64,000 nucleotides of DNA from Erodium maritimum. Taxonomy: Eukaryota > Streptophyta > Magnoliopsida > Geraniales > Geraniaceae. The notes beneath the pieces are model-generated. The model was given only the letters and a program-made list of their open reading frames with translations. It had not been told where the DNA came from and searched no databases. Where the stretch lies: positions 38,579,111 through 38,643,110 of the forward strand of contig OY997593.1 in NCBI GenBank assembly GCA_963921825.1, written 5' to 3'. The position numbers and the translations under genes are program-made. Below, one piece after another: positions 5,621 through 57,923 of this stretch (positions are counted from its first letter, which is position 1; each line of letters starts with the position of its first letter).

Positions 5621-5742
5621 CATTATGTGTGATGTGGTTCCGATGCAAGCTGGTCACCTTCTTCTATGACAACCATGACAGTTTTTTTTTATAGAAACTC
5701 AACATAATGGTCGGACCAACTACTACTCTTTCACTCACAACT

Positions 5743-6648: not shown

Positions 6649-8230
6649 TATATTTTTTTGATAAGCGAAAAATTTATTAAGCAGATGTTCTATAAGAACT
6701 ATAGAACAAAGCAAGAAAAGATCCAAAGAAACATTTTCCTCAGACCAGTACAACTACCAAAAGTACAAAAAATAACAGAAACAAGACAGAACGTAAACAA
6801 AAACTCATTGCCTACTTCCTATCCGGGTTCAGACAAGTAAACCGGTTAGAAACCGAAACAGGGGTTAGGGCTTGATCATAAGTCGGTTCCAGGTAATCCT
6901 CGTCCTTCCTACGCTCGAAATCCTTCTTGTACTGATCAAGCGAAAAAGAACAAAGATCAACATCCTTTCTACCAACTTTCGAACTGTAACTCCAATTACC
7001 TGAGCTATGTTTTATGGCAATGTTCACAATGAAACGTCCCATTTTATCCCCTTAGTCAGCGGAAGTTATGGCTCTTGTCTGATAGACAACAATTGGTTGC
7101 GCAATAACCTTCGACTGACCATTCTTGCGCAATAACCTTCGACTGACCATTCTTTGGGCATCCAGTCTCTTTGTTTCAACCCCAGAGATGGGTAATTTTG
7201 CTAAGGCTTCCTTCCAAGGACTGCCTTGAAACCCAACTTCCAGAATCGGGTCACCACCCCGAGGACGATTGGCATGCGCTTCTAAACCTGAGCCAACTAT
7301 CGAGTCCAAATCATTCCCAATTCGGTCAAAATTACCAGCCAAACTCGGGTCCTCACGGGCCACCATATGGGCCTTATCGTAAGGAGAAATTGGCCCATAC
7401 CACCTTTGGAGAGGGGCCGACCCAACCTGATCAATTGCAGGCTGAACAGGACCCGACCCAACCTGACCCATGTATAGTTATGTCTTCTCCCCAAGCCCAA
7501 CAACTGACCTAAGTGTTTCTCTAGCTGGACCCATGGACACCAATTCATCTTGGGCTTGAAAAGAGCCCAACACTACTGGATCTATGCCTGAAGGAGCGAC
7601 TGAAAATGACACGACGTCGCAGCTGTCTTCGTTCTCGCGATACAATCCCGGACGATCCACCGCAATCGCAGATGCAATTACGTCTTGAATGGGATCCTTA
7701 TCTAAATCAACAAAATTTTCTCAATGATTTAGAGGAACTTGAAAATCAAAACGAGACAGAATCGCGAGAATCCGGAGAAATAAAAAAGGGGACATCGCCG
7801 GTCGGAACAACGGCAGACGGTGTACTGACTGGAATGACATCCACCAGAGCTGCAGCTGAACTTTTCTGTTGACCATCCCTCAAAACGCCAGTCGAACGCA
7901 GCTGCAAGAGCATCTCCCGAAGTGCTCTGTTCTGCTTTTCCAGTCCATCCAACACAACTCTAGGACGAGCCAGAGCGACGAAGAGGACGTAACCATTTAT
8001 TTTGAACCCATTATGACTCTCCACGGCTTGAGACGATGCTGACGAAGTCGAGAATGTAACGAAACCGAAATACTTCCCTCCTATGTTTGAACGTCTCAAA
8101 ACAGAGCAAGATAAGATCGAGCCAAACGATCCAAAAACATTGCGAACCCATCCTTCTGAAGATCCATATGGGAGATTACGAATAAAAATCTCCCTTGAAC
8201 TGACATGGACTTGGCTCGGCAATGACTGAG
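6649..8230 (-). mobile_element. ORF1-only L1-type LINE, copy 1
   Basis: A minus-strand non-LTR retrotransposon with an unusual layout. An ORF1 with an RNA recognition motif runs down to a stop at 6812 and is followed after only about 160 nt by the poly(A)-type tail (TTTTTTTGATAAG on the plus strand at 6649-6664). No endonuclease or reverse transcriptase (ORF2) lies between ORF1 and the tail. The element at 44023-49064 has the same order and a similar 3' UTR. Plant L1 elements with an RRM in ORF1 are known (BNR-type LINEs), but those carry ORF2. This copy is 5'-truncated close to the RRM and no clear TSD was seen. Confidence 0.72.
6812..8222 (-). pseudogene. LINE ORF1 with RRM domain (decayed)
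   Basis: The first 158 codons (7746-8222) encode a full RRM: RNP2 is IFIRNL (about residues 12-17) and RNP1 is KYFGFVTF. A predicted helix with ENQ/RE-rich residues follows. Later pieces in other frames (7052-7471 and 6812-7042) match the C-terminal half of the copy at 44178-48981, including GSPWKE, KVIAQP-VVYQTRA, SGNWSYSSKVGRK and the ending VSNRF-CLNP. Several frameshifts separate the pieces. A 29-bp tandem duplication starting TTGCGCAATAACC (about 7097-7154) is private to this copy. In L1 elements ORF1 protein binds the element RNA, so an RNA-chaperone role is expected. Confidence 0.7.
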
Positions 8231-8261
8231 GACCAACTGAGACTGGGTGCTCCGAAACTTG

Positions 8262-8880
8262 TTGGGCTAGCCCTTATCATTCTTCTCAATGGGCTCATCT
8301 CTCTCTTCTAAATAATTTCCCTCCAAACCCGTAAACGGGCTTGTCCATGAGGATGCGTATTAGAATATAGCTATAATTGGACCTTCAACTACCAGCTTGA
8401 GCTTTTAGTTGAGTTGGTCCTTTAATATGGTATCAGAGCTTGACACCTCACGGACCCGGGTTCAAACCCCACTCCTTACAAAAATTTCTAATTTCTCTCA
8501 ATTTATCAAAATAGCCCTAATGGGCCAGCCCTTATATCTCTATTCTTAATGGGCTTATCTCCTCTTCTAAATAATTTACCTCCAACCCCGTAAATGGGCT
8601 TGTCCGTGAGGGCACATGTTAGAATATAACTATAATTGAGTCTTCAACTATCTGCTTGAGCTTTTAGTTGAGTTGGTTCTCTAATATGGTATCAGAGCCT
8701 GTCACCTCACGGACCCGGGTTCAAACCCCATTCTCTACAAAAATTCTATTTCTTCTCTATTTATCAAATTTGCCTCAAAGTGGGCTAGCCCTTATCAGTC
8801 TTCTCAATGAGCTCATCTCTCTCTTCTAAAAATTCACCTCCAAACCCGTAAACGGGCTTGTCCGTGAGGACGCGTATTGA
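8262..8880 (+). repeat. Tandem ~258-bp units, TRIM-like LTR relics
   Basis: Two full units and one partial unit of about 258 bp follow each other. Each carries GGGCTAGCCCTTAT- or GGGCCAGCCC-type starts and a segment beginning (TG)TTAGAATATA. The two full units end in ATGGTATCAGAGC, the usual primer binding site for initiator Met-tRNA in plant LTR elements, followed by CACCTCACGGACCCGGGTTC. Short LTR-like units next to a primer site fit a TRIM (terminal-repeat retrotransposon in miniature) caught as a tandem array. It carries no gene and is a fossil. Confidence 0.5.
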
Positions 8881-18399: not shown

Positions 18400-18767
18400 C
18401 TTGGATTGCCATAGATTATATTTCCTGTATTAGGGGTAGTGTTTTGGTGATGATGGTGAATAATGTTGAGGAAAGAACACAATTGTGTGGTTGTAAATGA
18501 TTTTAGATAAGGTTTAGTGTTGAATGAAAGAATTGATGGAATCAAGACACTGTGATGTATTCTTTTACTTTTTATTTATTTTGTTTTTATTCTAAATATT
18601 CATTTGACCGAGACATGTTGTGGTGTTCATGTATTTTAAAAATATCGGTAGCATGTCTAGTACAACAATAAGAGGACGGTGTTAGATATGGGCTCAATAG
18701 AGTATATTTAGGCCTTAAGACCCAATAGTTTTGTTTCGTTTGGAAAACCTTCGGTTTTTGGACTTTC
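18400..18767. other. Intergenic flank of the copia array
   Basis: No gene recognised. The last five bases (CTTTC, 18763-18767) are the left target duplication of the array that follows. Confidence 0.4.
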
Positions 18768-33990: not shown

Positions 33991-35678
33991 TGTTAGTCTT
34001 AGTGCCCGTAGTTCAATCCTAAATGTCCAAATGTACATATCATCGTTAGCAATAAAATTAAAGCGGCTTTATATTACTTATGTGTTGGAGTAATATATCG
34101 ACGTGTGCTCTGATCTATGCCCACCATGCGAATAGAACCATAGATCGAGATAGATCACACTCGATGGGTCCCTAGTCAACAAAGCTTCACTAGAAGCGAC
34201 TAGTATGAAAGATGGCTCTTTATGGCTTACGTTCTGTTAGTCATTGGAATGGGATTCCGGAGTCTGATCATAGATATCATGTGGGACATGATATTGGACG
34301 ACCCGCCCTGAATATGTGTCATAGATTAAGTCATGAACATATTCAGTGTTGTAGCTTGTCATGTATCCTTAGACCAAGGAGTCTTTGTGATCGCTATGTA
34401 GTCAACAACTGAGTTTGACCTGAGCCTAACGTTGTCCGTAACAGGGCTTCCATAACGGCCAGGATTGGCTTGGGGACGGGCTACATGAGTGACACGAAAG
34501 ACGGCTAAGGGATTTATCCCTCATACTAAGGTATGGGAAAGATATCGGTTCTCGGCCGCTTGATCGAGAGTGACTGGAAGAATAGCATGGCCATGCACAT
34601 GATATTGGGTATCATATCTTCAGTCATCTCACATATCAAGGAACGGTGATTGAGAATAATAAGGATGACGGCTCTATGCCTTATCTCAATCAGGATATCG
34701 GAGATAAAAGGATAATGACAGGGACGACGGAAAGGTTAGAATCGACAGGGTCGATTCGCTATGCAGTGTCAGGCAATACTAAAGTCTCGTTAGTTGCCAC
34801 TTAAATAGGATCAAGTAAAATGGGATTTTACGTTGATCTATTGACATGCATAAACCTAAGGGTCACACCGGAGGATGAAACTCATTGACACATTTATGGA
34901 GAATGGCCAAAAGGGAGTTGTCTCGGGACATGACCAAAACTGGGTTTTGGGTCATGTGCCCGTACGTGAATAGGACTTTACGGATCGAGACAAGGCTTGG
35001 AGTCTTGGGATTGATCGCGTCGGATAATGTTGGACATTTCCGGTATGGAAGGCTTGGAGGCGATGAGCGAATCACGGGACCTCGTTAGAAATGGCCACGG
35101 GCCATGTTCCAAGAGGCCCATGAAAGGCCCATGCAACCAAGGCCCATAGAACTAATTAATCAAGTCTTGATTAATTAGTACTAAGTAAGCAAGACAAGGA
35201 TTAAGGTGTTGGTGATTCACCACCTAACCCAATCTTGTCTTGCCATACTTTGTCCTATTTACACCTTACTTGACACCATACTTGTCCCATGCCTTTAGTT
35301 GGACAAGTATGGGTTTTGTTATGTTTAATTCATCTTTTTTCAACATAACAAATACAAGACAAGAATAGGAAACACATTTTCTCTCCCTCTTCCATGGCCA
35401 TTTCGGGTTTGGCTAGTTTCCACCTCCATGTTTGTGTTCTTGAGTCCTCAAAGAGAAGAACTACGTGGCTTTGATTCCCATGTGGATATGTAGGCGTCTT
35501 GGAGACTCAAGCCAATCATTCGTTAACCGGTGTTCTTGTTTTGGTAAGAACTAGTGCTGAATTTTTCTCTTGTGAATCCATTCTTTGTTAGTTGTTTCAT
35601 GGTTTTAATCGTCTCTTGGTTTTCATTGATTTTCCGCTGCGAGTTGGTTCATCTCCAACCCTACCTCGAGACCCAACA
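33991..35678 (+). repeat. Copia array LTR 3
   Basis: Full-length LTR, 6,771 bp downstream of LTR 2, followed directly by the right target duplication CTTTC. Confidence 0.92.
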
Positions 35679-36509: not shown

Positions 36510-36648
36510 TGTTGGGTCTCGATGGAGGGTATGAACACATACTCGCAACGGCAGCAAATAAAACCTGAGACCATGCAAGAAAAAACTACCACGATTAGAT
36601 TCACAAAACAAAATGAAATCATCATTTCTAACAATTGTTCAACAACAC

Positions 36649-39600
36649 TTTCACGCCCCAATTTCTGTAAACCGAACTCGGGACGCGAACGTTTAAAATA
36701 AGAAAGCACTTTGAAAACATTTCCATTAAAACATGTTACAATGCCAGTTTAGTTCAACAAAAGGATAATTACAATTCAAATAAAACATCCCACAAGCGGA
36801 CAAAAAGGCGAGGTATCCGTCGCTAGACCAAAAGTAAAAACCCGGACTCCCCTCCTAGCTCCACAAGCTTCGAGAGCTCACCTAGTCCGTCCCACGAACA
36901 GTACCTGTAGGAAAAGCAGCTAGGGGTGAGCGTTCGCTCACCACCACGGATAACAGACTGACTACGGCATAATTAGCAGACAATGCCGGCAACACCTACA
37001 ACCAACTCAACCCCGGGGATCACTGTCCCCAACCCAAGTACTCTGACTGACAAACACCCACGGTGACCTTCCTCGAACGACTCGACACTCAACACGTAAG
37101 TAGACACGACACAACGATCACGACCTCTTCCAAGGACTCAAAGGAACTACGCAACACCAAACAAGATCGCACACCAAACAAGATCACAAAGGATCGCAAA
37201 CCAGCTGCTCAGTAACCTCTCCCACTCACACGAACACGGATCAGGCTAGCCAAAGAGTGCTTACAACCTGTGATACTCAAACTCAGACCAGGCCAGCCAA
37301 AGAGTGCTTGCAACCTGTGTTACTCAAACCATGTCAGGCCAGCCAAAGAGTGCTTGCAACCCGTTGATACTCAAATTTGGTCAGGCCAGCCAAAGAGTGC
37401 TTGCAACCTACCGGGATCCGCAATCACAATCACAATCACAATTACAAGCAAATTCAAACACACAGGCACTCAAGGCCACTCAAGACACCTCAACAGTCAA
37501 GACTCGGGTTCAACAACCCCACGGGCACTCACTACCACCCAAGACACACCAACGGTCAAGACTCGGGTTCAACAACCCCACAGACACTCACTGCCACTCA
37601 AGACACACCAACGGTCAAGACTCGGGTTCAACAACCCCACGACACTCACGGCCACCCAAAACTCCGACAGTAAGACACGGGCACTCATGGCCACCCAAGA
37701 CACCAATTTAAACACACGGGCTCTCAAGGCCACCCAAGACGCCAAATTAAATACACGGGCTCTCAAGGCCACCCAAGACACCAAATTAAATACACGGGAT
37801 CTCAAGGCCGCCCAAGACGCCAAATTAAATACACGGGCTCTCAAGGCCACCCAAGACACCAAATTAAATACACGGGCTCTCAAGGCCACCCAAGACTCAG
37901 CAATAAATAACGCACAACAACCTTCGGCATAATCGATGCCTCCAACAGTCCTAAGGTCACTAGTTTCACAAACAACCTCCGGGCATGGTCATATGCCTCC
38001 AGCAGTCCTACTATCAACAGTTTCACAATCAACCTCCGGGCATGGTCATATGCCTCCAGTCAAACAATTAACGCTAAGTTCTCTGCTCCTAAGACACTAC
38101 TAAGTGTCACATGCTTTTCCAGTAATTACCAAGTTCCCGTAGCATGCTTTTCTAACATTTAAATAAGCCTATTCAACCCACGACACCCCGGTGTCACATG
38201 CAATTCTACTGTTAACTTTCCCTAATCAGGGCCGAGATCCGGCTACTTTTCCCTACCTCAACTGAAGAGCAACTGCTACGCTTCCTAGCTGCTGACGTTC
38301 TGGCTCGCTAACTCCGAGCTTCACTTCGATCGAAGCCGGACGCTAAAGAGGACACGAAAGCCATAAATTAATAACGGTTCCACCGCTAAATTAAAGGTTA
38401 CTATTAAACCAGTCTAGACCCGACAATTGTCCTTTAAACTCGAGCGAGCTAAAAGCGGGGTCACGGTGAATCGGGTTTGAGTACCCGAGCACCGAAACCG
38501 GTGCATGCGAGGCACGGTCCCAATGCACGAATCCCGAGGTCCGATTCAGCGGTCCGCTTTTGTTCCTTTTTAAACCCAAATAGCAGTCCATTCTACCCAG
38601 AATTCCAGAGTCGTTCCCAAATCCGATTAACAACCCTTTTTCAAAACAGAACGGTTTTTATTTTAAATCAAACTCCCCTTTTATTTCAAATCTATTTCTG
38701 TTCCGATCTTTTGAGCCCAAAATGAATTAAGTTCGGTTTTTGAACAACCGTCCCTAAATCCCGTTTACAAACTTGATTTTCAAAATTCCTCGATTTAAAA
38801 CCGTTTTTAAAACCGACTTGATTTTAAGTCCTTTTTATTTTAAATCCCCTTTTTCTTAAATCGATTTTCGTTTACAACCTTTTCTTTCCAAAACCTTGAT
38901 TCCGATTCCAACCAAAGCAGATCCAAAACCGTCTTTTATTATAATCTGATTTTGATTCAACAATTTCCCTTTTCGATTCAAAATCAGTTCTAAAACTTAA
39001 ACGATTCTTTAGCAGGTTTAACCGACATAATTTCCCCCAATCAGATCCACATCGACTCGAATTTAACAACACGGGAAACCTTAAACGAGGGGCTCGGTTT
39101 GGAAACCGGCCGGCCACCGACGGAGACGCCGCCGGCGACCAAACCTCGTGGTGAGAATCTCACCGTGGAAGGCGAGGTGGTGGAGCACGGCGGAGGGAGC
39201 GGCGGTGGTGGTGGTGGTGGTCGTGGGTTCGGCGGGGCACTCCGCCTCAGATCCGGACGGGTCTCACCAGATCCGGCGAGATTGTCTAGGGTAGACAATC
39301 CCGGCGCCGACGGGGGAAAGAGGCCGAGAGGGGTTCGGCGTTGAACACGGCCGGAGACACTGAGTGAGGGCGGAGGTGGCCGTTCGGGCTCGGTGGTGGC
39401 CGGAGATGGAGGCGGCGTGGTCGGGGCTGTGTGGGTCAAAGAAGAGAGGGAGAGAGATTGAAGAACGAGGGAGGAGGGTCGGACGTGGGAGGTGAGGGTG
39501 GACGGAGGTGAGGGTCGCCGGAGCTGGAGACGGGAGAGGGAGTGGTGGCCGGATCTGGTTAGGGCGAAGAAGAAGGAGGTCGGGGATGGGGTTTCGAAGA

Positions 39601-42900: not shown

Positions 42901-44177
42901 GTCCGTACTTGTGAAGTGCTGATATGCGTTTCTCGTTTATGTGGCCTAAACGATAGTGCCATAACAGAGTCTGGTCTAAATGATCGGATTTAGACCTTTT
43001 GGTATTAACGTTATAAATAGAGCTTGAGGCATTGTTACCCATATCTAATATGTCCAATCCTCCAACCATTTTTGCACAAACATAAAATATATCATTGCAT
43101 AAATTATTGAAAATCTAATTTCCAACATCAATATTATATCATTCGGTGTCCAACACGGATAAGAATATAATGTTCCTATTAAAATTAGGTATGCGATATA
43201 CATTGTTTAATACAGAACAAGGCAGCTTGGAAAACGAAGACTTACAGATCCTACAACAGTCGCCACAACCCTTATATTGTTGTCTACTCTAAGGTCCATT
43301 TTGTTCTTCTCCAAGCTTATCCTACCTTCCATCCACTACATGTCAGTGCATGTGTGAGATTCAGCTTTGGTATCCAATACCCATGAATCTTTGGAAGTAA
43401 AGAGAGGTAGCTCTATAAAGTTAATACCTGATGAAGGCGCAGTCCCACTGCCCTTCTTCAGATCATCCTTGTTTTTTCCGCAATCCCTTTTCGTTGACTA
43501 GGCTTCTGGAAATAGAAGCAGACATTCTCATCCTCCTTATCCTTCCTTGGGGACCCCTTGGTCCTTGAATGGATAGGAGCAATCAAGTGTCTCATCTTTC
43601 ATACCAAGTGCACAGGGGCCTTGCCCTTGCCATTACTAGTTTCCTTCTTGAAACTGGATCCATTTCTAACCATCAGAATATCCTTGGATTCCAAATCCTT
43701 GATATTCTTCTCAGCGGTTAAAAATGTGCCATGTAACTTTGATATGGTCTTATCGTGCATGTGATAGTTTATGATGAACTCAACATACGCACGAGAAAGG
43801 GAGCGCAGAATCCTATCTGCTGCCATCTTTGATTCTATCTTAAGACCCAGTCCATTAAGACGTTCGAGATGCTGATACGGGTGCATTTTAACACATAAAA
43901 GGGTCACATAATATCGAGTTATATAGACTTTTAGTGCTGTTTATTATCATATACCTAGGTTTATCATGAATAATTGTGTTTCTCTGTGTGTTCGGTGTTT
44001 TGCTGGAAAACTGATGTATTTTTTTTTTTGATAAGCTAAAATTTTATTGAACAATTGTTCTATAAGAATATAAAACAAAAGTAACAAAAAATCCAAAAGG
44101 ACCTTTTCCTCAAACCAATACAGCTACAAAGAGCAAAAACAGACCCGAAAAAAAAACAAGACATAAACACGCCTTTC

Positions 44178-44555
44178 TTAGATCCTTTTCGGGTTCAAAC
44201 AAGAAAACCGGTTAGAAACCGGAACAGGGGTTAGGGCTTGATCAGAAGACTGGTCCAAAAGATCCTCATCCTTCCCCAAAGAGTAGAGATCAACAACTTT
44301 CCTACCGACTTTCGAGCTGTAACTCCAGTCACCCGAGCTGTCTTTTTTAGCTACTGTCACCAGAAATTGTCCCAATGGATCCCCTTTAACAACAAAAGTC
44401 CTGGCTCTAGTCTGATACACCACCACTGGTTGTGCAATCACCTTCACCTGGCCCTTCTTAGGGCGGCCGCGTTTTCTTGGTACCGCCCCAGAAATCGGTT
44501 TTTCCAAGACTTCCTTCCACGGACTACCTTGAGACCCGACCTCCAAAGGCGGTAA
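44178..44555 (-). pseudogene. LINE ORF1 C-terminal part (AT-hook-like)
   Basis: This is the end of the RRM ORF1, cut off from its front half by the solo LTR that ends the piece at 44555. It reads GSQGSPWKEVLEKP, then an AT-hook-like KRGRPKKG, then KVIAQPVVVYQTRA and SGDWSYSSKVGRK, closing with VSNRFSCLNPKRI. The same strings recur in copy 1. The KRGRPKK core would suit nucleic acid binding in the minor groove, though in a LINE ORF1 it may simply aid RNA binding. Confidence 0.7.
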
Positions 44556-46389
44556 TGTAATAACCACTCCCGGTCAACGCAGTCAAACCTGCGAAAAACA
44601 GGAAAATTTAAAATTTTTAAGACTGACACTTGATTGAACCTAAAATGACCCCGAGTGTCATACCGGACTTAAGTTGACCCCGTTATCGACCAAAGTGAGT
44701 TCCGGGGAACTCAGGGCAACTTTCTGATCAATTTGGGAAATGTTGACTTTTCGCTGGAAAAGTCAACCGAGCGACGTTTTGGTCCATTCGAGGACCGTTT
44801 TGGATCCAAAGAGCTTAGCCGTCGTCGCAGCGGTCTTAGTTGAGCCGTTTCCTTGTAACCCGTCAAGTTTCGTAATTTTTGGGAAAAAGTGTACGTTCGG
44901 GGCCCGAAACGTCTGAGTTTCGCGAATCTGATTGGGAAATATCTTGAAGATATTTTCCAAAAAGACATGGGACCCACTTGCCACATGTCAATTAAGTGAT
45001 GGTGTTAGGTGACTTTTGAGAAAATATAAAGATGAGAAATGGAGGGGTGTTAGGCCATAAGTGTAAAAATAGGGTTTGTTGAGAGAGAGAGCAATAAGAT
45101 TGGAGTGAGCGGCGGCTTCCATTGCCAAGAGAGAAAGAGTGCTTCTGCTGCAAATTTATAATTGCACAATAAGTGTGCTTGTGGCCGAAGATGAAGAAGA
45201 GGAAAGCTTGGTTTATCATGATTTTGTCTCTTCTTGGTGTAGTTCCCAAAATAGTAAGGGATCAAAAGGTTTGGGTTGCGGCAACAAGAAGACAAGGAGC
45301 TAGAAATTAAAGGTTAGTCATTATTGTGTAGCTTCTTTAATTCTTGATTGGTGGAGGTTCATACTAAAAGCTTGGAGCTTGGTATTAGTGGTGGATGGTT
45401 ACAGTAACAATCAAGAATTAAATCACTAGTTGTGTAATTGATGCAAGATAGAGCTTGAGTGGTAAATGTTTGATTTGGATGGTGTTGTAACCACGGGTTA
45501 AGCAAATAAGAATCTTGTGGGTGAAGGAGCACACACAGGGGTACACGGCCAAAAATGTTTTTCTTCCTTTGTTGTTTCTTAAGTTGATATTAGAGCTATA
45601 TATCGGTAACAAAAGATAGGTAAATTTCTTTTGTACATTACCGTCTTGTTTTAAGAAATAAAGAATTAGGGCTTTTAAATTGTGGAAATTGGAAATGGCG
45701 GTTTAGAAACTTTAAACGTTAATTAAATGACTCGGAAGTTGGAATTCGATTCCGTCGAGTGCCTAGGAACCCTTGAATTATTCGAAGATCGTAGAAACGA
45801 AAACGGGAATTTTCGGAGCCTCGGAAGGGCGTTTACAAAACCCGGGCAGATTCGCCATGTCGGGCGAATCGGGCCTTTACGGGTCCCTTATCGACAATGT
45901 CGAGTAATTGGGAAGTTTGAGAGTGATCGACATTGTCGGGGTTAGGTTTGGGCATCGAGTTTAATGATTTTCAGTTTATTCCTGCAAGTTGTTAAGTGCC
46001 TTTAAATTGTGTTCTTTTAGATCGTGCCACGGACCGAGGCAAGGGAAAGCTGGGTGAGTGACTGAAATCATCACCGGAGCTCGTGGTTGGCTTTTGGGAG
46101 AACACGCACGAGGTAGGGAAAAGTAGCCGGATCTCGGCCCTGATTAGGGAAAGTTAACAGTAGAATTGCATGTGACACCGGGGTGTCGTGGGTTGAGTAG
46201 GTTTATTTAAATATTAGAAAAGCATGATACGGTATTGTAGCGTTTAAGAGAAAAGCATGTGACACTTAGTAGTGTCGTAGGAACAGAGAACTTAGCGATA
46301 ATTGAATTACTGGAGGCATATGACCATGCCCGGAGGTTGTTTGTGAAACTAGTGATCTTAGGACTGTTGGAGGCATCGAGTATGCCGGA

Positions 46390-46735
46390 GGTTGTTGTGC
46401 GTTATTTATTGTTGAGTTTGGGTGGCCTTGAGAGCCCGCGTTATTTATTGTTGAGTTTGGGTGGCCTTGAGAGCCCGCGTTATTTATTGTTGAGTTTGGG
46501 TGGCCTTGAGAGCCCGTGTTATTTATTGTTGAGTTTGGATGGCCTTGAGAGCCCGTGATATTTATTGTTGAGTTTGGGTGGCCTTGAGAGCCAGTGTTAT
46601 TTATTGTTGAGTTTGGGTGGCCTTGAGAGCCCGTGTTATTTATTGTTGAGTTTGGGTGGCCTTGAGAGCCCGTGTTATTTATTGTGGAGTTTGGGTGGCC
46701 TTGAGAGCCCGTGTATTTAAATTGGTGTCTTGGGT
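46390..46735. repeat. 45-bp minisatellite in solo LTR copy 3
   Basis: About eight units of TTATTTATTGTTGAGTTTGG followed by GTGGCCTTGAGAGCCCG, nearly identical. This is the reverse complement of the GGCCACCCAAGACACCAA family in copies 1 and 2, here freshly expanded. Confidence 0.88.
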
Positions 46736-47034
46736 GGCCATGAGTGCCCGTGTCTTACTGTTGAGGTTTTGGGGTGGCCGTGAATGCCGTGGGGTTGTTG
46801 AACCCGAGTCTTGACCGTTGGTGTGTCTTGAGTGGCAGTGAGTGCCGTAGGGTTATTGAACCCGAGTCTTGACCGTTGGTGTGTCTTGAGTGGCAGTGAG
46901 TGCTCATGCGGTTGCTGAACCCGAGTCTTGATTGTTGAGATGTCTTGAGTGGCCTTGAGTGCCTGTGTGATTGAACTTGCCTGTGATTGTGATTGTGGTT
47001 ACCTGAAGTTGTGAGTTCAAAAGGTCGACAGCCT

Positions 47035-47255
47035 GATCCGACTTAGTGTCGATGAATTGCGAGTTCTAAAGGTCGACAGCCTGAGCCGACTTAGTGTCGA
47101 TGAATTGCGAGTTCTAAAGGTCGACAGCCTGAGCCGACTTAGTGTCGATGAATTGCGAGTTCTAAAGGTCGACAGCCTGATCCGACTTAGTGTCGATGAA
47201 TTGCGAGTTCGAAAGGTCGACAGCCTGATCCGACTTCGTGTCGAGGAATTGCGAT
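47035..47255. repeat. 48-bp minisatellite in solo LTR copy 3
   Basis: Four to five units around GGTCGACAGCCTGATCCGAC followed by TTAGTGTCGATGAATTGCGA. Single versions of the same text occur in copy 1 near 13390, so the array expanded in copy 3 only. Confidence 0.85.
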
Positions 47256-47836
47256 AGGTCGATCCCTGACCTGATTGAGATTGGTTACTGAGCAGTTGGT
47301 GTGCGATCCTTTGTGATCTTGTTTGGCGTTGTGTAGTCTTTCTGTCGTGTCCTTGGAGGAGGTCGTCGATAGTTGTGTCGGGTCTACATTGTGTTATCGA
47401 GTGTTGAGTCTGTTGAGGAAAGTAATGGGTTGTGGGTCAGTTGGTTACTTGAGTTGGGGACTGTAGTCCCGGTGTCGGGTTTGGTTGTAGTGTTACTGGC
47501 TTTTCTGCTAATTATGCCGTAGTCAGTCTGTTATCCGTGGTGGTGAGCGAACGCTCACCCCTAGCTGCTTTTCCTACAGGTACTGTTCGTGGGACGGACT
47601 AGGTGAGCTCTCGAAGCTTGTGGAGCTAGGAGCGGAGTCCGGGTTTTGTCTTTTGAGTCTAGTGACGGATACCTTGTACTTTTGTCCACTTGTTGGGACG
47701 TGTTTTAAACTGTAATTATTATTTTGTTGGAAAAAAGGGTACTTTTAAAGTGTTTAATGAAAACAGGTTTCAAACGGCTTTATTATTTAAAATGTTCGCG
47801 TCCCTAGTTCGGTTTTACTGAAATTGGGGCGTGACA

Positions 47837-48981
47837 GGTAAAACCGAGCCCGCAGGGCCCAGGTCCTTCTCCATTCGCCTAAAAATAGTATCCAGACTCG
47901 GGTCCTCCCTGACCGGCGTGTGGGCCTTTTCCGAAGATGAAATAGGCCCAGAGAGCCCACTTGGCAGGCTTAGCCCATCAAGGACAGATGGATCTGCTTG
48001 ACTATGACCAAGCCCACCAAAACTGGTCCCTTGGCCCAAAGCGTCTTGAGGCCCAACCACAACCCCACGCGAACGATCCTTGTTCAACACCGTAGACGAA
48101 GACACGTACAGAGACTTCGACGAGATCGGATCAAGGACAACTGAGAAATCCATCCCTTGATTCGAAATCGAAAAAGGGATTCCGAAATTCAAGGACTCGA
48201 TTCCTGAAACGGGGGAAGGGCAAACAAGTCGAGGAAGCTCGCCCGATTTCGGTACGGACTCGGGCACGACTAGCGCCGGAATGACCTGAGGGGCGGCGAT
48301 TCCTTCAGGACACTCTATCTCAGCATCCTCCTGACGAACACGGTCTCCGGAGCTAAGAAACTCGACGTCCCGCTGAGCATAAACGATGCTCTGTTTCACA
48401 GAGGTAATGTTCTGTTTCAAGTTCTCGCCTAAGATAGTCGTCGGAGGGCTTAAGCTACGCCGAGAAAACGCTACAAAAAGTATATGCCCTTTCACATTAG
48501 CCCCATTTAAGGTCTCAAGCGCCTTCTGCGCGGCAAGGGACGTCGTGAATCGAACAAAACCGAAGAAAAAGCCTGCCCTGTTTTCTCTTTTTAGCAGCGA
48601 GAAGGAAGTGATTTCGCCGAACAATGACAGCTTCTCTCTAAACCAAACTTCCGATGTTGGGTACGGTAGGTTCCGAACGTACAATTCTAAAAAACTCGCC
48701 TCGTATCGAACCGAGTGTCGTCGTCTACGCCCCACATCATCCGAGCGAGCTCCGGCGGAATCTCCTTCTTTGGAGTCAACGTTCAGAGGAGCAGAGTTCG
48801 GAATAGGGTCGACGTCCGAGATCGATTGCCTCCCCATCCCTTTCGCAGGAGCTGTACGAGGATTGTCCCGACGACGCACCCCTGAACCCACACCCTTGCC
48901 CGGCTGCTCACCACCACCCTTGACCGGACAGTGATTATCCGGCGTGCAGATGGAACGATACTTCTTGTACAGGGACAACAA
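47837..48981 (-). pseudogene. LINE ORF1 N-terminal part with RRM
   Basis: About 380 open codons. After a basic, Gly/Pro-rich leader (KGGGEQPGKG, RRRR) comes an RRM at about residues 99-175 counted from the TTG at 48981. RNP2 is LYVRNL (100-105) and RNP1 is FFFGFVRF (138-145). The remainder is Ser/Pro/Asp-rich and low in structure. The frame stays open up to the solo LTR insertion at 47836, so the ORF was probably intact when the LTR landed. No ATG fits the frame clearly, so the true start is unsure. Expected role: binding of LINE RNA. Confidence 0.75.
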
Positions 48982-51716
48982 GCCTGAACAAAACGAATAG
49001 AACTCCTCCAGATTTGAGGCTCCCTAAGAACGTTTGAGAGAACACTTCTTCTTCATGTGTTTGTAAAACCGATGTATTTTGGGTGTTTCGTGCAAGTGGA
49101 TCAATTTTTTTCGTTCCGAAATATATTCATGGTTGGTCTTGTTTTGTAGGTCTTGAAAATAGGAATTTTTGGCGCAAGAACGAGATCAAGCGGAGCTCAA
49201 ACGAAGTCGGAGCGAGCAAAATAGCAAGATATGAGCAAAAATGGAACAACAAGTCAGAGGGCGACAAGTGGCGCCGCCAGCTCAGCCGCCTCTCCTCCCT
49301 GCGCGACAGCTGGCGACGCCGAATCAACCTACAACTGACGCGTGTCCCAGCCGGCCCGTTTCTCCACGTGGCTTTCTCCTGCGCTTGACACATGGCCATC
49401 CCAACCGCCATTCAGCTCCTGCGCGACACCTGTCCCAGCCGCTCCACCTCTGCCCGCGCAACACCTGTCCCGGCTGTGCACCTCACACTCCCATGCGTGG
49501 CTTTCTTCTATTGGTGATCAAATAGGACAACAACTCAATTTGGTGTCAGCCGCAATTTTGGATATAAGACACACCGAACCAGAGATAATATTTTGTATAG
49601 TTTTCTTTTCTTTTGAATTAAAGAGAGAGTTTATTATTTTGAATTTGATTGTTGAGGATCTATATTTTGTGAGTAGAGCATCAATTTGAGATTTATTTGA
49701 GGTAGTGATTTTTGGAGAAAAGCTTCATTGTTGGCTACACAAGTGGATTTTTTTGGTGGATTTTCAAGAGCATCAAGGCTATAGATTGGAGGAGAGATGG
49801 AACAAGCTTTGGACGACTAATTCAGTGATTGTTTCTCAACTTTCATCTTGATTATGAGTTTAATTGTTTGCTTCTTCTCATCTTTGTATTTTCTCACCAT
49901 GAACACCTAAACCCCCAATTTCTAGGGCTTTGGGGGATTAGAGTAGTGATTTCCATGTTTTGAATGCTTCTATTGTAGGTTGGATTTAAATCCTAGCTAG
50001 AACTAACGGGCTTAATACAACTGCAATATTCATAGACTTGTTTTGTCGAAAGCTAGAAGTTGTCATAGAGCTTAACGCTTTGGATCTTCCTACATCGAGA
50101 GTCGAAAGAACTCGATGGTTGGATTCCATTAGGGTCCGAATCGTTTGAAAGAAGTTAGGACTAGAGTCGAGATAACTCGTTGCCTCTAAAATAAATCGAC
50201 ATCGCAACAATCGAACGTGTTCAATTTTATGGAATGAACTCGATGAACTCATGCTCTTGATTTCTCTTCATTTGATTCAAGATAAGAAAACTCTCTTTTA
50301 AATTCTATATTTTCTTTTTGCTCGTTATAGGTTTATTTTCAAAACATAAAAATTAGATTTTTACCGAAACAGCTTAGCTACAAACTTTAGATAGCAAGTG
50401 ATTGTCTATTGCTCTCTTGGGCTCGATATCCCGGAATTTACTTCCGGTTACTACTTGGCGACCGGTACACTTGTCGTGTCCCGTTTTTGCGCTTAAAACC
50501 CGCAGGACGAGCCAAGTTTTATGCCCCTTCATTTTCTGGACATGAGGGATAGCCTTGTCAAGTACATATTCTTTGCGTTCAGACTTGAGGACTATCTTCA
50601 AAATTTTGTACCAGTCCAAATAGTTTGTCCAGTTTAGGTTTACCCTGTCAAGAATGGTTTTTAATGACAAACTATTAATATTCGCTAAATTTGCCATTTG
50701 ATCTACAACTGATAAAATTCAATCAGTAAACTGAATAAATTTTATGAAGATCAAGCTTAAACACCAACAATCGATTCTATACATGTAGAATCTAAAACCA
50801 AGATCCTTGATTCACTCGATTAAGCTGAACGAAGGCTCACCACTCAATCGAGCTATGTAGGTAGGACCCCATCCAATCACATCCAATGTGACTCTTGGCT
50901 AGGGTATGTACTTAAGTACACGGCTAACCCTATCTGATACCCTAGCTCAATCATGGCTAACAATCGTAGCCGGGTCCACCAATTTTCAACTATGGCCCGC
51001 CACTATGTAGGTGATCCGCTAAGGTGCACGACACCCACATATGTTGTCCAAACCTACTACCCCGCTTTCCCATGGATGCTCCGCTAAGGCGCACGACACT
51101 CATAGGATGGAGAAGTTGTAAGGTGTTAATAATTGGGAGGTATCGGACATGACCCGTTTTTACTTGTCCGGTTACATCCTAGATGCGATGAGCACATCAA
51201 CTACATTCCAAATGTAATGATGCCTCCAATTACATCCAATGTAATTCTTCCTTCGAACCCGTCAACTACATTCAATGTAATGACCGTCCTAAGGGATCAC
51301 AAATAAGGATTAAAATTCCAATTTTATCTTTGCATGTGAGGTGATATGCTCGGTAAATAAAGTAAAACATGCAATTCTAATCCAACACATAGAATTAATC
51401 ATGCATAAAATAAACCAAGCATAAAGCGATAAATGTGTACATAATAGCCCCCTAAAATAACTCCCACTAGCTTCTTGAGCTCCATCGACTCCAAGCCGAT
51501 GTCAACACCCCAAAAAAGACACCAAATGACATTTTCGCCATTTCTTCGTCTTGAGCAAAATATTACAATTTAATACACGACTCGCAGGCCGGGAATAAAT
51601 AAATATTACAAATAAGTGGTACGAAGACCAAACATCAAAAAAAAATTACACGCTAACTGTAACAGCTCGCAGGCCGTGAAAAGCGATAAATAATTAAATT
51701 GAGCTCGGGGCTATTA

Positions 51717-52572
51717 TGTACACTTAGTGCCTCGATTTTTGTGCACACACACTATTCAGGGAATAATGTGTGTGGGACGGCGCTGCCACGACGAAAAACC
51801 CTCCCTCCATCCCTACAAATACCTTGCCCCTCCCTCTCAAATTCTCACACCTTTCTATCAAACTCTCTCTTAAATTCTCTCATCATCCATCGTTTTTTCT
51901 TCTTGGAAAATGGCTTCGTCTTTTGGGGCAACTAATCCACTGTGGTCGAAAGAGAAGGAGATGCACTTGGTGGTGGCGTGGCTAACCGTTGCCGAGGTAG
52001 GGGAAGTACTGGGAAAACGTCCACCTTACTTTCCTTGAAACCACAGATGAAAAGTGCCCTACACGGACAAGGAAGCAGATGAAGGGTAATTTCCTTCGGA
52101 TGAGCCAAAATTGTAAGGCATTCAATGCGATATACCAGGGCCGTCTCCACGATCATAGAAAAGGAGCAACGATGAAGAAATCTATACTACGATTATGGCC
52201 GATTACAAGGCAAAAAACAAACCATAGACTAAACGTGATGTGTGGGAGATGCTGAAGGATGAGTGTAAGTGACGTATGCACATTGACATGATTAGAAAAT
52301 AGTTGAATGGTCGTATGTTTATTTATCGTTCATAGGTTGAATTATTGTTCATAATTTAGCATATGTATTTCATATTTGGTATAAATAAATAACTAGTTTT
52401 ATTTGAGGTGACTTTGAAAATATGAAAAGTCCAATAACTCTAAACAACTACTAATTATTTGCTATTAGAGAATGAGTGGTAGGAGGTAGTGGTTTGGAGG
52501 AGAGAAATACTCAAAATGTATTCATACTACTCCTCCAAACCACTACACAGACGATTATCATTGGAGATGCTC
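51717..52572 (+). mobile_element. PIF/Harbinger-type element, left end lost
   Basis: The right end is GGAGATGCTC (52563-52572) followed by TAA, the inverted form of the GAGCATCTCC terminus seen at 1073. Inside lies a relic of the Myb-like second protein of Harbinger elements. No left terminus is found, because the sequence meets the copia C leader at 51716. No DDE transposase is present. Confidence 0.6.
51910..52275 (+). pseudogene. Harbinger Myb/SANT-like ORF relic
   Basis: From ATG 51910 the frame reads NPLWSKEKEMHLVVAWLTVAE, close to the W(S/T)xEEDxxLVxAWL start of the plant Harbinger Myb-like DNA-binding protein (also found in NAM-associated proteins). A stop follows after 42 codons. Later frames keep scraps of the family, such as RMSQNCKAFNAIYQGRL and EMLKDECK. 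It is therefore a frameshifted pseudogene of about 120 codons. In active elements this protein helps the transposase bind the ends. Confidence 0.6.
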
Positions 52573-52909
52573 TAAAAGATTAGAGAACACATTTTAGATC
52601 TATTCAGTTGTAATCGAGATTTACTATACCCGAAATAATCTTTATATTCTACGATCCTATCGGTAAAACCCGTTTGGACTTTTATCCTTTAAAAACAAAA
52701 AGAAGGGAAGGAAAAGAAAAATCAAAAGTCGTAGTCAATCTTTCTCTCCCAATCCTCTCCAAACCAAACCTGCCCTCCACTCTCCTTTGTATTATCACTT
52801 TAAAAACACCAATTCTCTTTATCTTCCTCAAAATTTACCCGCCCAAAAGCAATTCAATCTCTAGGGTTTGGTGGTAGCTGTTCTCCCACTCCATGCGCTG
52901 CCGACCCTC
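52573..52909 (+). promoter_or_regulatory. Probable promoter and 5' leader of the PHD-BAH gene
   Basis: Only about 340 bp separate the Harbinger end from the start codon. The stretch has a TATA-like TTTATATTC at 52641 and a CT-rich patch (TTTCTCTCCCAATCCTCTCC at about 52741), both usual in plant core promoters. No transcription start can be fixed from sequence. Confidence 0.4.
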
Positions 52910-52982
52910 ATGGACGCTCCACCTCAGGAATCGCTGGTTCCATCTTCTAAGAAAGCACGGCTGTGCGGGCCCGGGGAGGTGA
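52893..52982 (+). promoter_or_regulatory. Upstream ORF overlapping the main start
   Basis: An ATG at 52893, 17 nt before the main ATG and in another frame, opens a 29-codon frame that ends in TGA at 52980-52982, inside the main coding sequence. If it lies in the mRNA, ribosomes must skip it to make the PHD-BAH protein, so it could lower translation. Confidence 0.4.
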
Positions 52983-55900
52983 GGAGGGTGGCTGAGATTG
53001 TGCTGGTATTGTCGGCCTTGGCGCAGGTGCGCGGTGGGAGGACGCCCACTCCCGAAGAGGAGGAGTTGATGGTGGAGGCGAGGGACAAGATGGCTGGGAT
53101 GTGTCAGGACCTGCCGCCCAGAGATATCTTGTCTGGGGAGGTTGTGGGGAATGTGATGGAGGTTATGGGGCTTAATGCCAAGGCTAAAGATCTAAGGTTA
53201 GGGTTTAGGGCTACCAGGTTGACCATTGCTGAGAAGATGGCTCTTGCTAAGAGAAAGGTATGTTTTTATATTTTGGATTATTTTGCAGCAAGTAATAACT
53301 TTTCTTCTTCGATGTTAGGTTATGTTAGTGGACATTGTAAATGTGTGTACAAACGTCTAATGAAGAGGACAAGGAAATCCATCCATTGTCTATGCCATAG
53401 TCAAATTACCCATATGCTAATTAACTGATTAAATGGGATTGGGCAATTGTAACAATAATTTAGGAAGTTTAATAATGACCAAGTATATAAAGATATTCAA
53501 TTTGATGTACATGATGTGTAATCAGAAAACGAGCAGTTATTAATTCACTGGCAACTTTGCTACCCTTGATTTCTTTCTCAATTTTTTTTCAATAAATAAA
53601 AGATTTATAACATTTCCGAATTTCTTTTCGCCAGTTCAATATCAGTTCTTAACTTTCAAAACTATGGAAGTCCTGGAGACATGAGGTAGTGTTCAATGAC
53701 TGAATCAGTATATTGTTCGGTGTCACATGCTGCTTTCACTTTCCCAACCGGATCAATGGGCATTATTTACACTCCAATTGATGTTATTATGATTTGGCTA
53801 CTCAATGTTGAGTTCATAGATGACTGATGATTTCAATCCTTGTCTTTCTGCCCTTTATTGTATACGTATGAAAAGTGAATCACAGGGAATGACAAATTTC
53901 CTAGCAAGGTTGATACAAGTTGTCACCACAATGTTCACCTTGAAATATAGGAGGGATTTATGATATGATAAATTGTGTTATTTGATCTTTGTTATCTTGT
54001 AACTGAAAGTCATAATTTCGTTAAATTGTGTAATACAAAATTTTGGCTTATTCAAGGTTATAATAATAATCTCAGGCTTAACAATGGACTAGAGATTAAG
54101 GTAATTTTTATTCTCTTATAAAACTTGTTGCCATGACAATCTGCTGCTTTGTTACTAAATTTCCAAAAGAAAAATAGTCTTCGGTTACCGTATACACCCA
54201 CAATATTCTGATTGACTGCTATAGACAGTTAATATAATATTGGAGATTTCATAGTTTCCTCATATGCGTGAAATTGTGTTAGACGAGATAGTAATTGGCC
54301 TTTGTTAATAAATATCACTCCAAGGGTTACATTCACACTGAATTTGTTAGGCCAATTGTGTTTGACAATGACTAGTATTACAGACTAAGTTTTGATTGAT
54401 TGCTGACAAAACAGTTTGTTGTTATGGCACTACACTCTTCATATTTCCCTTAGATACGTCGAATTTAGACAAGATAGGAATTGATTTTTGTTTATATATA
54501 TATATATATATATATATATCACTGCAATAGTTATATTTACATTAGGTGTAATATGTTTGACAGGCCTAGACCTAAGTTATTTAATTGTTATTTCCTTGGT
54601 TGTGTAGGAAATCTTTTCGTTTATTTTTGTTTCAGTATGCCTGATATAGACTGTCCCATATGATTTATGTCAGACTGAGTCATGGAATCTTCTTAATGCT
54701 TATTGTCTAGTTGGAAGATTGCAAGAAATTCACTCCTCATCCTGCTACTTATTCATCTCATCCATTACAAAAGGGCTATGGTACTGCAGCTGAAAACCGA
54801 GGAACATCAGATCCTGTTCGTGCATTTTCATCAGATAAACACATACATACACCAATTCCTGCTGGAAGCTTCCCAGCTTCAACACCTCTAAGTCATGCTC
54901 CTGCTGCACCTTCTACTTCTTTATCATATCAGTTTCCTAGTAATAAGGTAAGAGCATCTGTGGTTTCCAGTGGATTGCGTGGCAGCAATTTAGGAAGGGA
55001 TTCATCTTTGGCAGCATTACCTAAGGTTGAAAGAGGTCTGCTGAAGGTGGATGGAGGATCAAATGGGACTTCTTATGCGTCCCCTTGTGTCCGAGGTAAT
55101 GTTTACCCCTTGTTGAGAATGAAAGTGTCTTCTTCCATTTGTATGTACATTGGATATATTGGACTTACTAATCCTACAAATCTATGTGCAGCAAATTCTT
55201 CTGCTGAATGTCCACTGGTGAATTATCCAACCTGGTCTGTATATCCTCTATCTGCTTCATCGGCTAAAAGTGGACCAGATAATAAATGGCCAAATCAGAC
55301 TCTTGCCAAGGTTGAAGGAACTATTGATACAAATTTGGTACAGATGGCTCCTCAAGCAGCAAGGGATCAAACCTTTTGGCCATTTATAACTCAAACACCA
55401 TCAGGAAGTTTGTCACCTCAGCCTTTGCCGGCGATGAATATTGGTGATGCTTCATCTTATACTCATCACGATGAGATTGCAAAAATTGTTCAGACGGTGT
55501 TACGACCACAGCTTCCTGACCATCCCACATGGACTCCACCTTCAAGGGATTACATGAGCAAGCCATTGGGTTGTTTTATGTGCCAACGTACTGTTACTGA
55601 GGTGGAAACTGTGCTCCTTTGTGATGCGTGTGAGAAGGGATATCACTTGAAATGCCTGCAACCATATAATCAAAAAGGAATCCCCAGGGGGGCGGAGTGG
55701 CACTGCCCAAAGTGCTTGCAGTTAAGCAGTGGAAAGCCTTTGCCCCCTAAATATGGACGTGTCATGAGAAATTTAAGTTCGCTAAAAACAACTTGTATTT
55801 CAGCTGAAGTTCAATCATCTTCAGAAAAGAAATCAGGAACTTCAGATTTGAAGGCAAGCCAACAGAAGATAATAACAAATGAAAGCAATACTGTACAAAG

Positions 55901-57923
55901 TCTTACACCAACTAGTGCTAACTTTATCAACCATGCTGATGTGCCATATAGTTCAAAGATTCCAAATGTGGGAAGAATGCAAGGGAATAACCTTACATCA
56001 AGCACACATGATGTGGATGAAAAGCCTTCTTTGGTAACTTACCAAGTTATTTCAGCAAAACAGATGGGGGGTCAACATATTCAGCCATACGATTCATCTG
56101 AACAGGTCCCTGAGTCAAGACCTCAATCAGTGGGTGAATCATCTGATACTGTCCCTACTAGGATTGGTCATATGGAACGATCAGACAACCCACAAAGTAC
56201 TAGCTGGACAGCATTCCCCCAATGTGTTGAACTGACATTGGACAATCAGAACTCTGTGGTTAGAGAGTCAGATAAATCCGCTATCGAAATTGTTGATACT
56301 GCATCAGTATGTAGTTCTAAGATAGATGGCCTTGACATCTCACAGTCCAAATCTATTTTGTCAAAGAATGGCAATTCTATGGTTAGAGACTTAGATAAGT
56401 CCTTCACGACTGACGTTGTCGATAAAACATCAGTATGCAGTGCAAATAGAGATGCCTTTGACATCTTACAATCCATATCTAGCAATGTTACTAGAGAGAT
56501 CTCTTCTTTTGATAGATTACCTGATGTTGGATGGATTGGTGATGCATTGCAAGTTGTGGACGGAAAAACGGTTCATAAATCCTGTTCTGTTGGTGGAGTG
56601 ATGTATGAGGTGCAGGATTATGCTGTTTTTCGTTTCAACCATGACAAATTGGCTCCCTCTAGACTTAAGGTAAGCTCATTATCAAGCAGAGTAAGACACC
56701 TCTTACTGAAATACTTACATGAGAAGTGTACTTCTAGAATCTAAGATTAAGTTCATGCTGTCTAATGGCAGGCCATGTGGGAGAATAACAAAACTGGGTC
56801 AAAGTGGGTTATTGTCAATAGGTGTTACTTTCCTAGCGACTTGCCCAAAGTTGTAGGCTGCCCCCCTGCACCTGAAAGCAACGAGGTTATCTCTCTTCTT
56901 ATTTCCTCCCCAACTTTCCTCACACATTTTAATGTTGGATTAATTGTCAAAACCTACCCTAAAGTTTTGTCCACGCTTTTAAGGTGCACAAAGTATTGTC
57001 CACCATCGTCTGTTAGAAAATTGTTATTGCCCACGAACTATTGAATGCATTATGAATTGCCAGCAAATCTACTGCAAAATGACGAGTGTTAGCAGAAATG
57101 ATAAGCCAAAGCTGTAATCCATTATTTCCCACAAAACGACGGTGAACAATACTCTATGCATCTTAAAAGCGTGGACAAAAGATAAGATCTTTTTTTGGGC
57201 ATGGACAATAATTTAGGGTAAGTTTTGGCAATTAGCCCTTTAATGTTTTATAGTTGTATGAAAATCTGATGATTGGGCATGTTTGTTGACTGGTGATTGA
57301 ATCTGATGGTTGGTAGTAGCCCCATATCTTCATATTCCTTTTGTTTTTTTTAATGTTGTTTTTATGTGATTCCTTTTTAGTTTATAATTGAATATCAACT
57401 CATACGAGTTTTTTTGTTGCTTTTCCATAGGTATATGAATCTACTCATGATATCACCATGATGGCTAGCCTGATTCAAGGGCCATGCAAAGTTCTTCCTA
57501 CAACCAACTTTAAGGAAGAAAGAGAAAGAAGAGAACAGTTAGACACTGAAACTAATGGTGGAACATGCCCAGTTTTTCTGTGCAAGTATGTCCCTTCTTG
57601 CAACTTACAAGTAATTCTCTAGGATTCAATTGTTATGTATAAATATATCATCAGTTTAATCATGTTTGTGATTAGTTTACTGAATTTTTTGGATTAGTTT
57701 TGCCAACAATTTAAAAAATATTATTTCATTAAATGCAAACTGAAACCATGCATATGCTGAGAACACCTCTAAATAAAATATTGTGGCAAGTTTTTTACTT
57801 TGGGTTATGAAGTTTGAGATATGTGTTTTGAATTTATAACATTATGTGCTTATTGTCAGGTGGCTGTATGATGAACTGAAGGGGAGTTTTCAACCTATTT
57901 CCACTAAATCTGGTGATGCATAA
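52910..57923 (+). CDS. PHD finger and BAH-like domain protein (chromatin reader)
   Basis: Six coding exons: 52910-53257, 54711-55095, 55192-56669, 56772-56885, 57431-57585 and 57860-57923. All junctions are GT-AG, total 847 codons. Residues 1-116 form a conserved-looking block with KKAR (14-17). A long Ser/Pro-rich stretch follows, then a PHD finger with all C4HC3 ligands: C372, C375, C388, C391, H396, C399, C416 and C419, with W414 before the last pair. A low-complexity linker leads to a BAH-like domain (about 700-840; MYEVQDYAVFRF, WVIVNRCYFPSDLP, VYESTHD). PHD fingers often read histone H3 tails and BAH domains bind nucleosomes or methylated histones, so a nuclear gene-regulatory role is inferred. 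From memory it resembles Arabidopsis AT3G20280/AT1G50620 (unchecked). The start is the first in-frame ATG. Confidence 0.88.
55096..55191 (+). other. 96-nt in-frame intron, possibly retained
   Basis: GTAATG...GTGCAG with a good branch-point match (TTACTAAT) some 22 nt before the acceptor. Its length is a multiple of three and it holds no stop in the gene's frame, so retention would add 32 residues rather than end the protein. The encoded extra piece (YPLLRMKVSSSICMYIGYIG...) is hydrophobic, unlike its polar surroundings, which favours splicing. Confidence 0.65.
56937..57238. mobile_element. MULE-type MITE in intron 4 of the PHD-BAH gene
   Basis: A 302-bp element with inverted ends (GGATTAATTGTCAAAAC / GGGCTAATTGCCAAAAC) and an exact 9-bp TSD, TTTAATGTT (56928-56936 and 57239-57247). 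A 9-bp TSD fits Mutator-like transposons. Its ends match the elements at 58290 and 60901. The insertion respects the gene's splice sites (intron 56886-57430). Confidence 0.8.

Follow-up and report, generated by a model that had tools for sequence, protein, structure and literature searches.

The DNA analyzed here, a 64,000-nucleotide stretch of the Erodium maritimum genome (contig OY997593.1; "the window"), carries on its minus strand, at positions 49061-44023, a LINE composed of an ORF1 with an RNA recognition motif (RRM), a 148-nt 3' UTR, and a poly(A) tail (copy 1). A second, much diverged copy, which likewise lacks ORF2, lies approximately 36 kb away on the same strand, at about 8262-6653 (copy 2). 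The features of the two copies are as follows.

49062..49080, minus strand: 5' target-site duplication (TSD) of copy 1, with a 16-bp core at 49065-49080
47837..49056, minus strand: 5' part of ORF1, copy 1, beginning at the ATG and ending where the LTR is inserted, with a TAG at codon 11
48484..48684, minus strand: RRM domain, copy 1 (Pfam RRM_1, E 2.8e-13)
44556-47836, minus strand: nested solo LTR, 3281 bp, TG..CA ends, flanked by GGTAA at 44551-44555 and 47837-47841
44178..44550, minus strand: 3' part of ORF1, copy 1, in phase with the 5' part, stop codon at 44180-44178
44030..44177, minus strand: 3' UTR, copy 1, identical to copy 2 at 104 of 146 aligned positions
44055..44078, minus strand: 3' hairpin, copy 1, 25 nt before the poly(A)
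44019..44029, minus strand: poly(A), copy 1, 11 A, the final four shared with the TSD
44004..44022, minus strand: 3' TSD of copy 1, with a 16-bp core at 44007-44022
6812..8262 (5' limit approximate), minus strand: broken ORF1, copy 2, with the RRM at 7983-8189, the C part at 7249-6815, and the stop codon TAG at 6814-6812
6660..6811, minus strand: 3' UTR, copy 2, with the hairpin at 6686-6708
6653..6659, minus strand: poly(A), copy 2, 7 A

The ends of copy 1 are defined by its TSDs, AAAATACATCAGTTTT (44022-44007, minus strand) and AAAATACATCGGTTTT (49080-49065), which match at 15 of 16 positions, or at 17 of 19 if the 19-bp version is used; depending on the TSD length chosen, the 5' boundary falls at 49061-49064. 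No further match to the 16-mer of at least 14/16 was found on either strand of the window. The preliminary description of this locus, a LINE between 15/16-matching TSDs that, its nested LTR aside, holds an RRM-bearing ORF1, a short 3' UTR, and an A tail, is thus confirmed and proved to be stronger than first stated. Both a poly(A) 3' end and a TSD, traits of the L1 clade, are present in copy 1. The nested element, also noted in that description, is a solo LTR with a perfect TSD (5/5), and the ORF1 frame is intact on either side of it; relatives of this LTR occur elsewhere in the window, one of them near 15.6 kb. An earlier placement of its left end at about 44577, with a 4/5 TSD, was replaced by 44556 after comparison with the 15.6-kb relative and a boundary check. 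In many of the comparisons reported below, the C-terminal piece of copy 1 ORF1 starts with six LTR-derived codons, which do not align to copy 2 and have practically no effect on the pair counts.

The ATG of copy 1 ORF1 lies in frame, 5 nt inside the 5' boundary, and the TAG is the single stop in 530 codons when both sides of the LTR are counted, which exceeds the approximately 380 open front codons described before. Pfam RRM_1 was detected in both copies, the RRM of copy 1 having been recognized at the outset. Judged by its RRM and its context, the frame was assigned as a putative LINE ORF1; an AlphaFold2 prediction of its C part with two sequences reached a mean pLDDT of 36.7. Across 43501-52500, translated in all three minus-strand frames, the Pfam endonuclease (EN), reverse transcriptase (RT), and zf-RVT models gave no match at E values up to 0.01, in agreement with the claimed absence of ORF2 between the defined ends of copy 1. 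The AT-hook-like motif (KRGRPKKG), listed initially as a kept feature, did not hold up: it scored 10.8 bits (E 0.52) against a Pfam cut-off of 17.4 in copy 1 and is not retained in copy 2, where a 28-nt tandem duplication adjoins the corresponding position. It was therefore given zero weight as evidence.

In copy 2, whose 5' end is undefined, no Pfam match to EN or RT was found in the minus-strand frames, and neither a TSD nor a clear 5' end was recognized, so that one of the two copies, copy 1, has its own TSD and copy 2 shows the poly(A) alone. Upstream of copy 2, the same strand carries part of an ORF2, a zf-RVT piece located within 10359-9487; a repeat cluster separates the two and runs straight into copy 2.

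The junction leading from the ORF1 stop through the 3' UTR to the poly(A) is common to both loci (2/2 copies in the window), and the alignment of the two copies crosses it with small gaps only. The junction is therefore not confined to a single locus; such uniqueness was half of what the preliminary description had named as refuting a lineage. Of the many dispersed copies with the same junction and individual TSDs that a lineage was expected to show, one further copy was found; there are two copies only, the TSD of copy 2 is unseen, and a third copy of the junction was not found within the window. At the protein level, the copies share 57% identity in the C part of ORF1 and 34% in the RRM part (tblastn). 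Identity between the copies peaks in the final ORF1 codons and drops at the stop.

Across all ORF1 parts, omega between the two copies is 0.32 (bootstrap interval, 0.21-0.45; values of at least 1 in 0/500 replicates). Specifically, third codon positions of the RRM differ at 60/88 sites compared with 62/176 first and second positions (P 5e-7), and the third-position excess extends over all ORF1 parts combined (P 8e-10); for the final 67 codons taken alone it is not significant (P 0.07). As judged from the two sequences, the substitution pattern, the RRM included, shows purifying selection, which may have acted before or after the loss of ORF2; this was the outcome of the dN/dS comparison proposed in the preliminary description. 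Silent divergence is uneven, with third positions differing at 27/41 sites in the RRM, where silent sites are near saturation (pS 0.79), and at 25/81 in the C part, which could reflect recombination. Within a stretch picked after viewing the alignment, the last 23 ORF1 codons, third-position differences amount to 0/16, compared with 25/65 elsewhere in the C part (P 0.0018).

The 3' UTRs differ at 42/146 positions, a level similar to that of the adjacent ORF1 third positions (P 0.76) and lower than that of the RRM third positions. An AATAAA lies shortly upstream of the poly(A) in both copies. The 3' hairpins of both copies fold better than 200/200 shuffles; the stem differs between them by a G-U to G-C change, and no two-sided pair changes were found between copies 1 and 2. 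Each hairpin scores 9.5, a score of at least 9 being reached at 28/3000 random places, and an unrelated A-run at 15116 outscores both (10.5). Since the two copies are homologous, their hairpins are not independent evidence. Another candidate, spotted by eye in the ORF1 end (CCGGUU-UCU-AACCGG), was discarded, since the folding of that stretch does not exceed that of shuffled sequences (z -0.1 and -0.6).

The bases preceding the poly(A) of the copies are closer to a LINE-like tail at 6242 than to any of the other 38 non-self A-runs, a point in favor of a LINE-borne lineage; a further LINE-like tail, at 3874, shows no such likeness, ranking 20th among 41 runs, and counts against it. The tail at 6242 was rejected as that of a helper element: of the six pairs predicted for this tail and the two copies, three stay paired via two-sided changes and three are broken in one of the three sequences, making the three-way covariation weak, and its hairpin score of 6 is reached at 187/3000 random places. 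An association of the zf-RVT piece at 10 kb with this tail was likewise unsupported (3' UTR comparisons, z 3.1 and 0.4). Relatives were also sought in two collections that by design contain no plant genomes: viral contigs gave either no match at all or pattern matches (12 and 5) of which not one was confirmed, and prokaryote contigs gave 114 pattern matches, none confirmed, with a result of zero in another search.

Both copies are old, and the identical manner in which ORF2 is absent suggests a lineage borrowing the enzyme of another element. Half-L1 elements of mammals are known to spread in this way. HAL1, specifically, is a nonautonomous L1 derivative coding for ORF1p only, with several independent origins in mammals, according to PMC5753468. 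The copies described here resemble HAL1 in being L1-type units with ORF1 alone, and differ from it in their plant host, their RRM-type ORF1 of approximately 530 codons, and, in copy 1, the near absence of a 5' leader. An RRM in ORF1 is known from the plant L1 BNR (Belline1), as indicated by the title of Heitkam and Schmidt 2009 as cited in PMC3747384 and PMC11603912, and BNR appears in a listing of plant L1 families in PMC9033089; the likeness lies in the RRM, and the copies here, unlike BNR, are without ORF2. We lean toward regarding copies 1 and 2 as members of an ORF1-only, HAL1-like lineage of RRM-type plant L1 elements mobilized in trans. The plant counterpart of HAL1 that the preliminary description had suggested is partly supported: it gains from the second copy with the same junction and from the purifying selection on ORF1, but the number of copies (two) and the unseen TSD of copy 2 count against it.

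An origin of the copies as separate by-products of ORF2-bearing RRM-type L1s, in which retrotransposition follows the deletion of ORF2 or its splicing out at conserved sites, would require no ORF1-only lineage; we consider it improbable, if the most serious of the alternatives. The selection on ORF1 could have acted in ORF2-bearing sources instead, which would account for it, and the silent identity of the last 23 codons looks as if the ORF1 end, the most identical part, had an added role. Spliced L1 RNAs do retrotranspose in human, where they yield SpIREs (spliced integrated retrotransposed elements), shortened L1 copies from RNA missing an internal part (PMC5860796). However, the SpIREs that the abstract of this paper describes miss the 5' UTR or 5'UTR/ORF1 and are termed evolutionary dead-ends, whereas here ORF1 is retained and ORF2 is gone, and the same junction would have had to arise twice, in lineages whose RRM silent sites are near saturation.

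We regard it as quite doubtful that L1 machinery moved mRNAs of a host gene family, be it a LINE ORF1 that was domesticated or a different RRM gene, and thereby produced the copies as processed retrocopies. The AATAAA and the mRNA-like bounds would fit such an origin, poly(A) and TSD suiting any L1-moved mRNA, but the 3' UTR diverges about as much as the adjacent third positions, and less than those of the RRM, and keeps its hairpin, which a copying signal explains better than an ordinary 3' UTR. It is very improbable that the copies are 5'-truncated LINE pieces with an RRM frame downstream of ORF2, as the zf-RVT piece upstream of copy 2 might suggest: the repeat cluster separates the two, the 5' TSD of copy 1 ends 5 nt ahead of the in-frame ATG, an unlikely truncation point, and we know of no LINE with such an arrangement.

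Under the favored reading of an ORF1-only lineage, the unit measures approximately 1.75 kb, with next to no 5' leader, the RRM ORF1, the 3' UTR with its terminal hairpin, and the poly(A). Its RNA would be transcribed and translated into an ORF1 protein that would then bind its own RNA, presumably in cis; the EN/RT of a putative ORF2-bearing L1 helper would grip this RNA via the 3' hairpin and/or the poly(A) and insert it, in trans, by target-primed reverse transcription. The common ancestor of both copies would already have lacked ORF2. For LINEs and SINEs of maize and sorghum, PMC3747384 reports a hairpin at the 3' end, with UCU in its loop, in a lineage of plant L1s whose 3' end is stringent (monocot 1a in ME1); the resemblance of its loop to that of the copies here is short and may be due to chance, and the conserved CGAG beside the stem of monocot 1a is absent from them.

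More tentatively, the copies may represent a long-lived plant lineage in which the RRM protein is kept by selection without ORF2, and RNA signals, i.e., the 3' hairpin and the silent-site-conserved ORF1 end, recruit the machinery of other LINEs, making it a SINE-like parasite coding for its own coat protein. If the existence of an ORF1-only lineage holds true, loss of ORF2 with retention of ORF1 would be a repeatable strategy, adopted in both mammals and plants; it would suggest that the plant ORF1 protein works mainly on its own RNA, and it would provide a compact natural unit for asking what a plant LINE reverse transcriptase requires of its template.

The preliminary description had reported a LINE with near-matching TSDs, an RRM-bearing reading frame (ORF1) and a nested LTR, and without the endonuclease/reverse transcriptase frame (ORF2). 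This observation was confirmed and comprises the following features:

49061-44023, minus strand: non-LTR retrotransposon copy (copy 1)
44022-44007 and 49080-49065: TSDs of copy 1, AAAATACATCAGTTTT and AAAATACATCGGTTTT, respectively, 15/16 identical
44556-47836: solo LTR in ORF1 of copy 1, starting with TGTCACGCCCC and ending with TTACA, with GGTAA at either side

Extended to 19 bp, the TSDs match at 17/19 positions, and no other site in the 64-kb window, whichever the strand, matches the 16-mer at ≥14 positions. Copy 1 terminates at its 3′ end in 11 consecutive A, directly preceded by GCTTATC; the last four A are common to the TSD. The ATG of ORF1 (49056) lies five bases inside the 5′ boundary. 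Minus the LTR and one copy of the LTR's TSD, copy 1 is 1753 nt long. Its ORF1 stays in phase across the solo LTR; the two sides together comprise 530 codons with only one stop (TAG at codon 11) and include a clear Pfam match to the RRM (E 2.8e-13). A search of the three minus-strand frames of 43501-52500 returned no endonuclease or reverse transcriptase domain at E up to 0.01.

The solo LTR belongs to a long-LTR family characterised by 39- and 48-bp internal tandem repeats, further members being located at 12745-15642, which also looks like a solo LTR (TG..CA ends, TAAAT at either side), and at about 36648-38259. Elsewhere, a Copia-like cluster (18763-35231) holds three 99% alike segments (18768, 27220, and 33991), spaced by 8452 and 6771, together with an inverted relative at 23558-24803; it might represent LTRs and internal parts arranged in an array. 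Host-gene-like frames on the plus strand correspond to a PHD-finger protein and a DUF7797 domain (54711-56744 and 52865-53428).

The junction of the ORF1 stop with 3′ UTR and poly(A) recurs once, in a diverged relative on the minus strand about 36 kb away (copy 2, about 8262-6653). Of the refutation envisaged in the preliminary description, namely, relatives carrying ORF2 and a junction confined to a single locus, the latter half is thus ruled out. The RRM frame of copy 2, taken from the ORF list, spans 8273-7746 (Pfam E 4.1e-13). Minus-strand tblastn and blastn matches to copy 1 cover the RRM, middle, and 3′-terminal (C) parts of its ORF1 as well as its 3′ UTR and extend to 6653. Protein identity is 34% in the RRM part and the following stretch and 57% in the C part, the ORF1 proteins ending in SNRFSCLNPKRI (copy 1) and SNRFTCLNPDRK (copy 2) before the stop. 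In copy 2, the ORF1 end is followed by the homologous 3′ UTR (104/146 aligned positions identical) and seven A, with no ORF2 between. Copy 2 is dead, as its ORF1 contains in-frame stops and at least one frame change. No recognisable TSD was found for it, and its 5′ end is undefined because the 5′ side passes straight into a cluster of repeat units (8262-8870; 184 nt alike at 8303-8486 and 8562-8745), the last of which, cut off, abuts copy 2. A profile built from both 3′ parts detected no third copy in the window.

Four aligned parts of ORF1 (306 codon pairs, 305 used) gave an omega of 0.32 between the copies (bootstrap 0.21-0.45; 0/500 replicates ≥1). For the RRM, on which the preliminary description had proposed a dN/dS test, silent divergence approaches saturation (pS 0.79, pN 0.35) and hence no omega is given; the test instead yielded an excess of third-position differences (60/88 codons, versus 62/176 first and second positions; P 5e-7). 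The same contrast reached P 8e-10 over all parts and P 0.07 for the last 67 codons alone. This pattern indicates that the sources of both copies, with or without ORF2 at that time, made an ORF1 protein that mattered. Under the preferred interpretation, the lack of ORF2 would be ancestral. The rival explanations are that both copies arose from an ORF2-bearing relative by splicing or deletion, that both are retrocopies of a host gene, or that both derive from a LINE with its gene order reversed.

At silent third positions, the C part is more alike than the RRM (25/81 versus 27/41 differing; P 4e-4), and the last 23 ORF1 codons (44181-44249; copy 2 end to 6815), a stretch picked after inspection of the alignment, differ at 0/16. 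Either RNA constraint or past recombination would account for this likeness. Near their 3′ ends, the two copies form the hairpins UGUUUUAUA-UUCU-UAUAGAACA and UGUUCUAUA-GUUCU-UAUAGAACA, both stopping 25-26 nt upstream of poly(A), with z values of -4.4 and -3.5 (51- and 53-nt pieces) or -3.1 and -2.4 (longer pieces). A single stem pair differs between the copies (G-U versus G-C), and no pair is changed at both sides. For a plant L1 lineage in which recognition is stringent, PMC3747384 likewise reports a 3′-end hairpin with UCU in the loop; the CGAG next to the stem of that hairpin is absent from both copies.

The window has 41 runs of ≥7 A, of which two belong to the copies. The 33 bases upstream of poly(A) in both copies are closest to those preceding a LINE-like tail at 6242, ahead of those at the 38 other non-self runs; a LINE-like tail at 3874 ranks 20. 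This likeness offers no more than a lead to a candidate helper LINE. ORF2 remnants of two other LINEs lie near the copies and on their strand:

9487-10359, minus strand: zf-RVT, E 4e-16
4643-5698, minus strand: zf-RVT, E 1.1e-14

According to PMC5753468, HAL1 derives from L1, is non-autonomous, encodes only ORF1p, and originated several times in mammals; L1 is called the likely supplier of its machinery in PMC4161310. An RRM in ORF1 is known in the plant BNR family. The literature searched, its scope not extending to key HAL1 and plant LINE papers or Repbase, contained no plant ORF1-only LINE, which is therefore weak evidence of novelty. Most likely, the ORF1-only unit would be transcribed, the RRM protein would bind the RNA of its own unit in cis, and the ORF2 protein of another L1 would copy this RNA in trans at a nick, giving rise to TSD and poly(A). 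Both copies, as ORF1-only units, would on present evidence work like HAL1, and two copies per 64 kb, extrapolated from one window, hint that copy number may be high.
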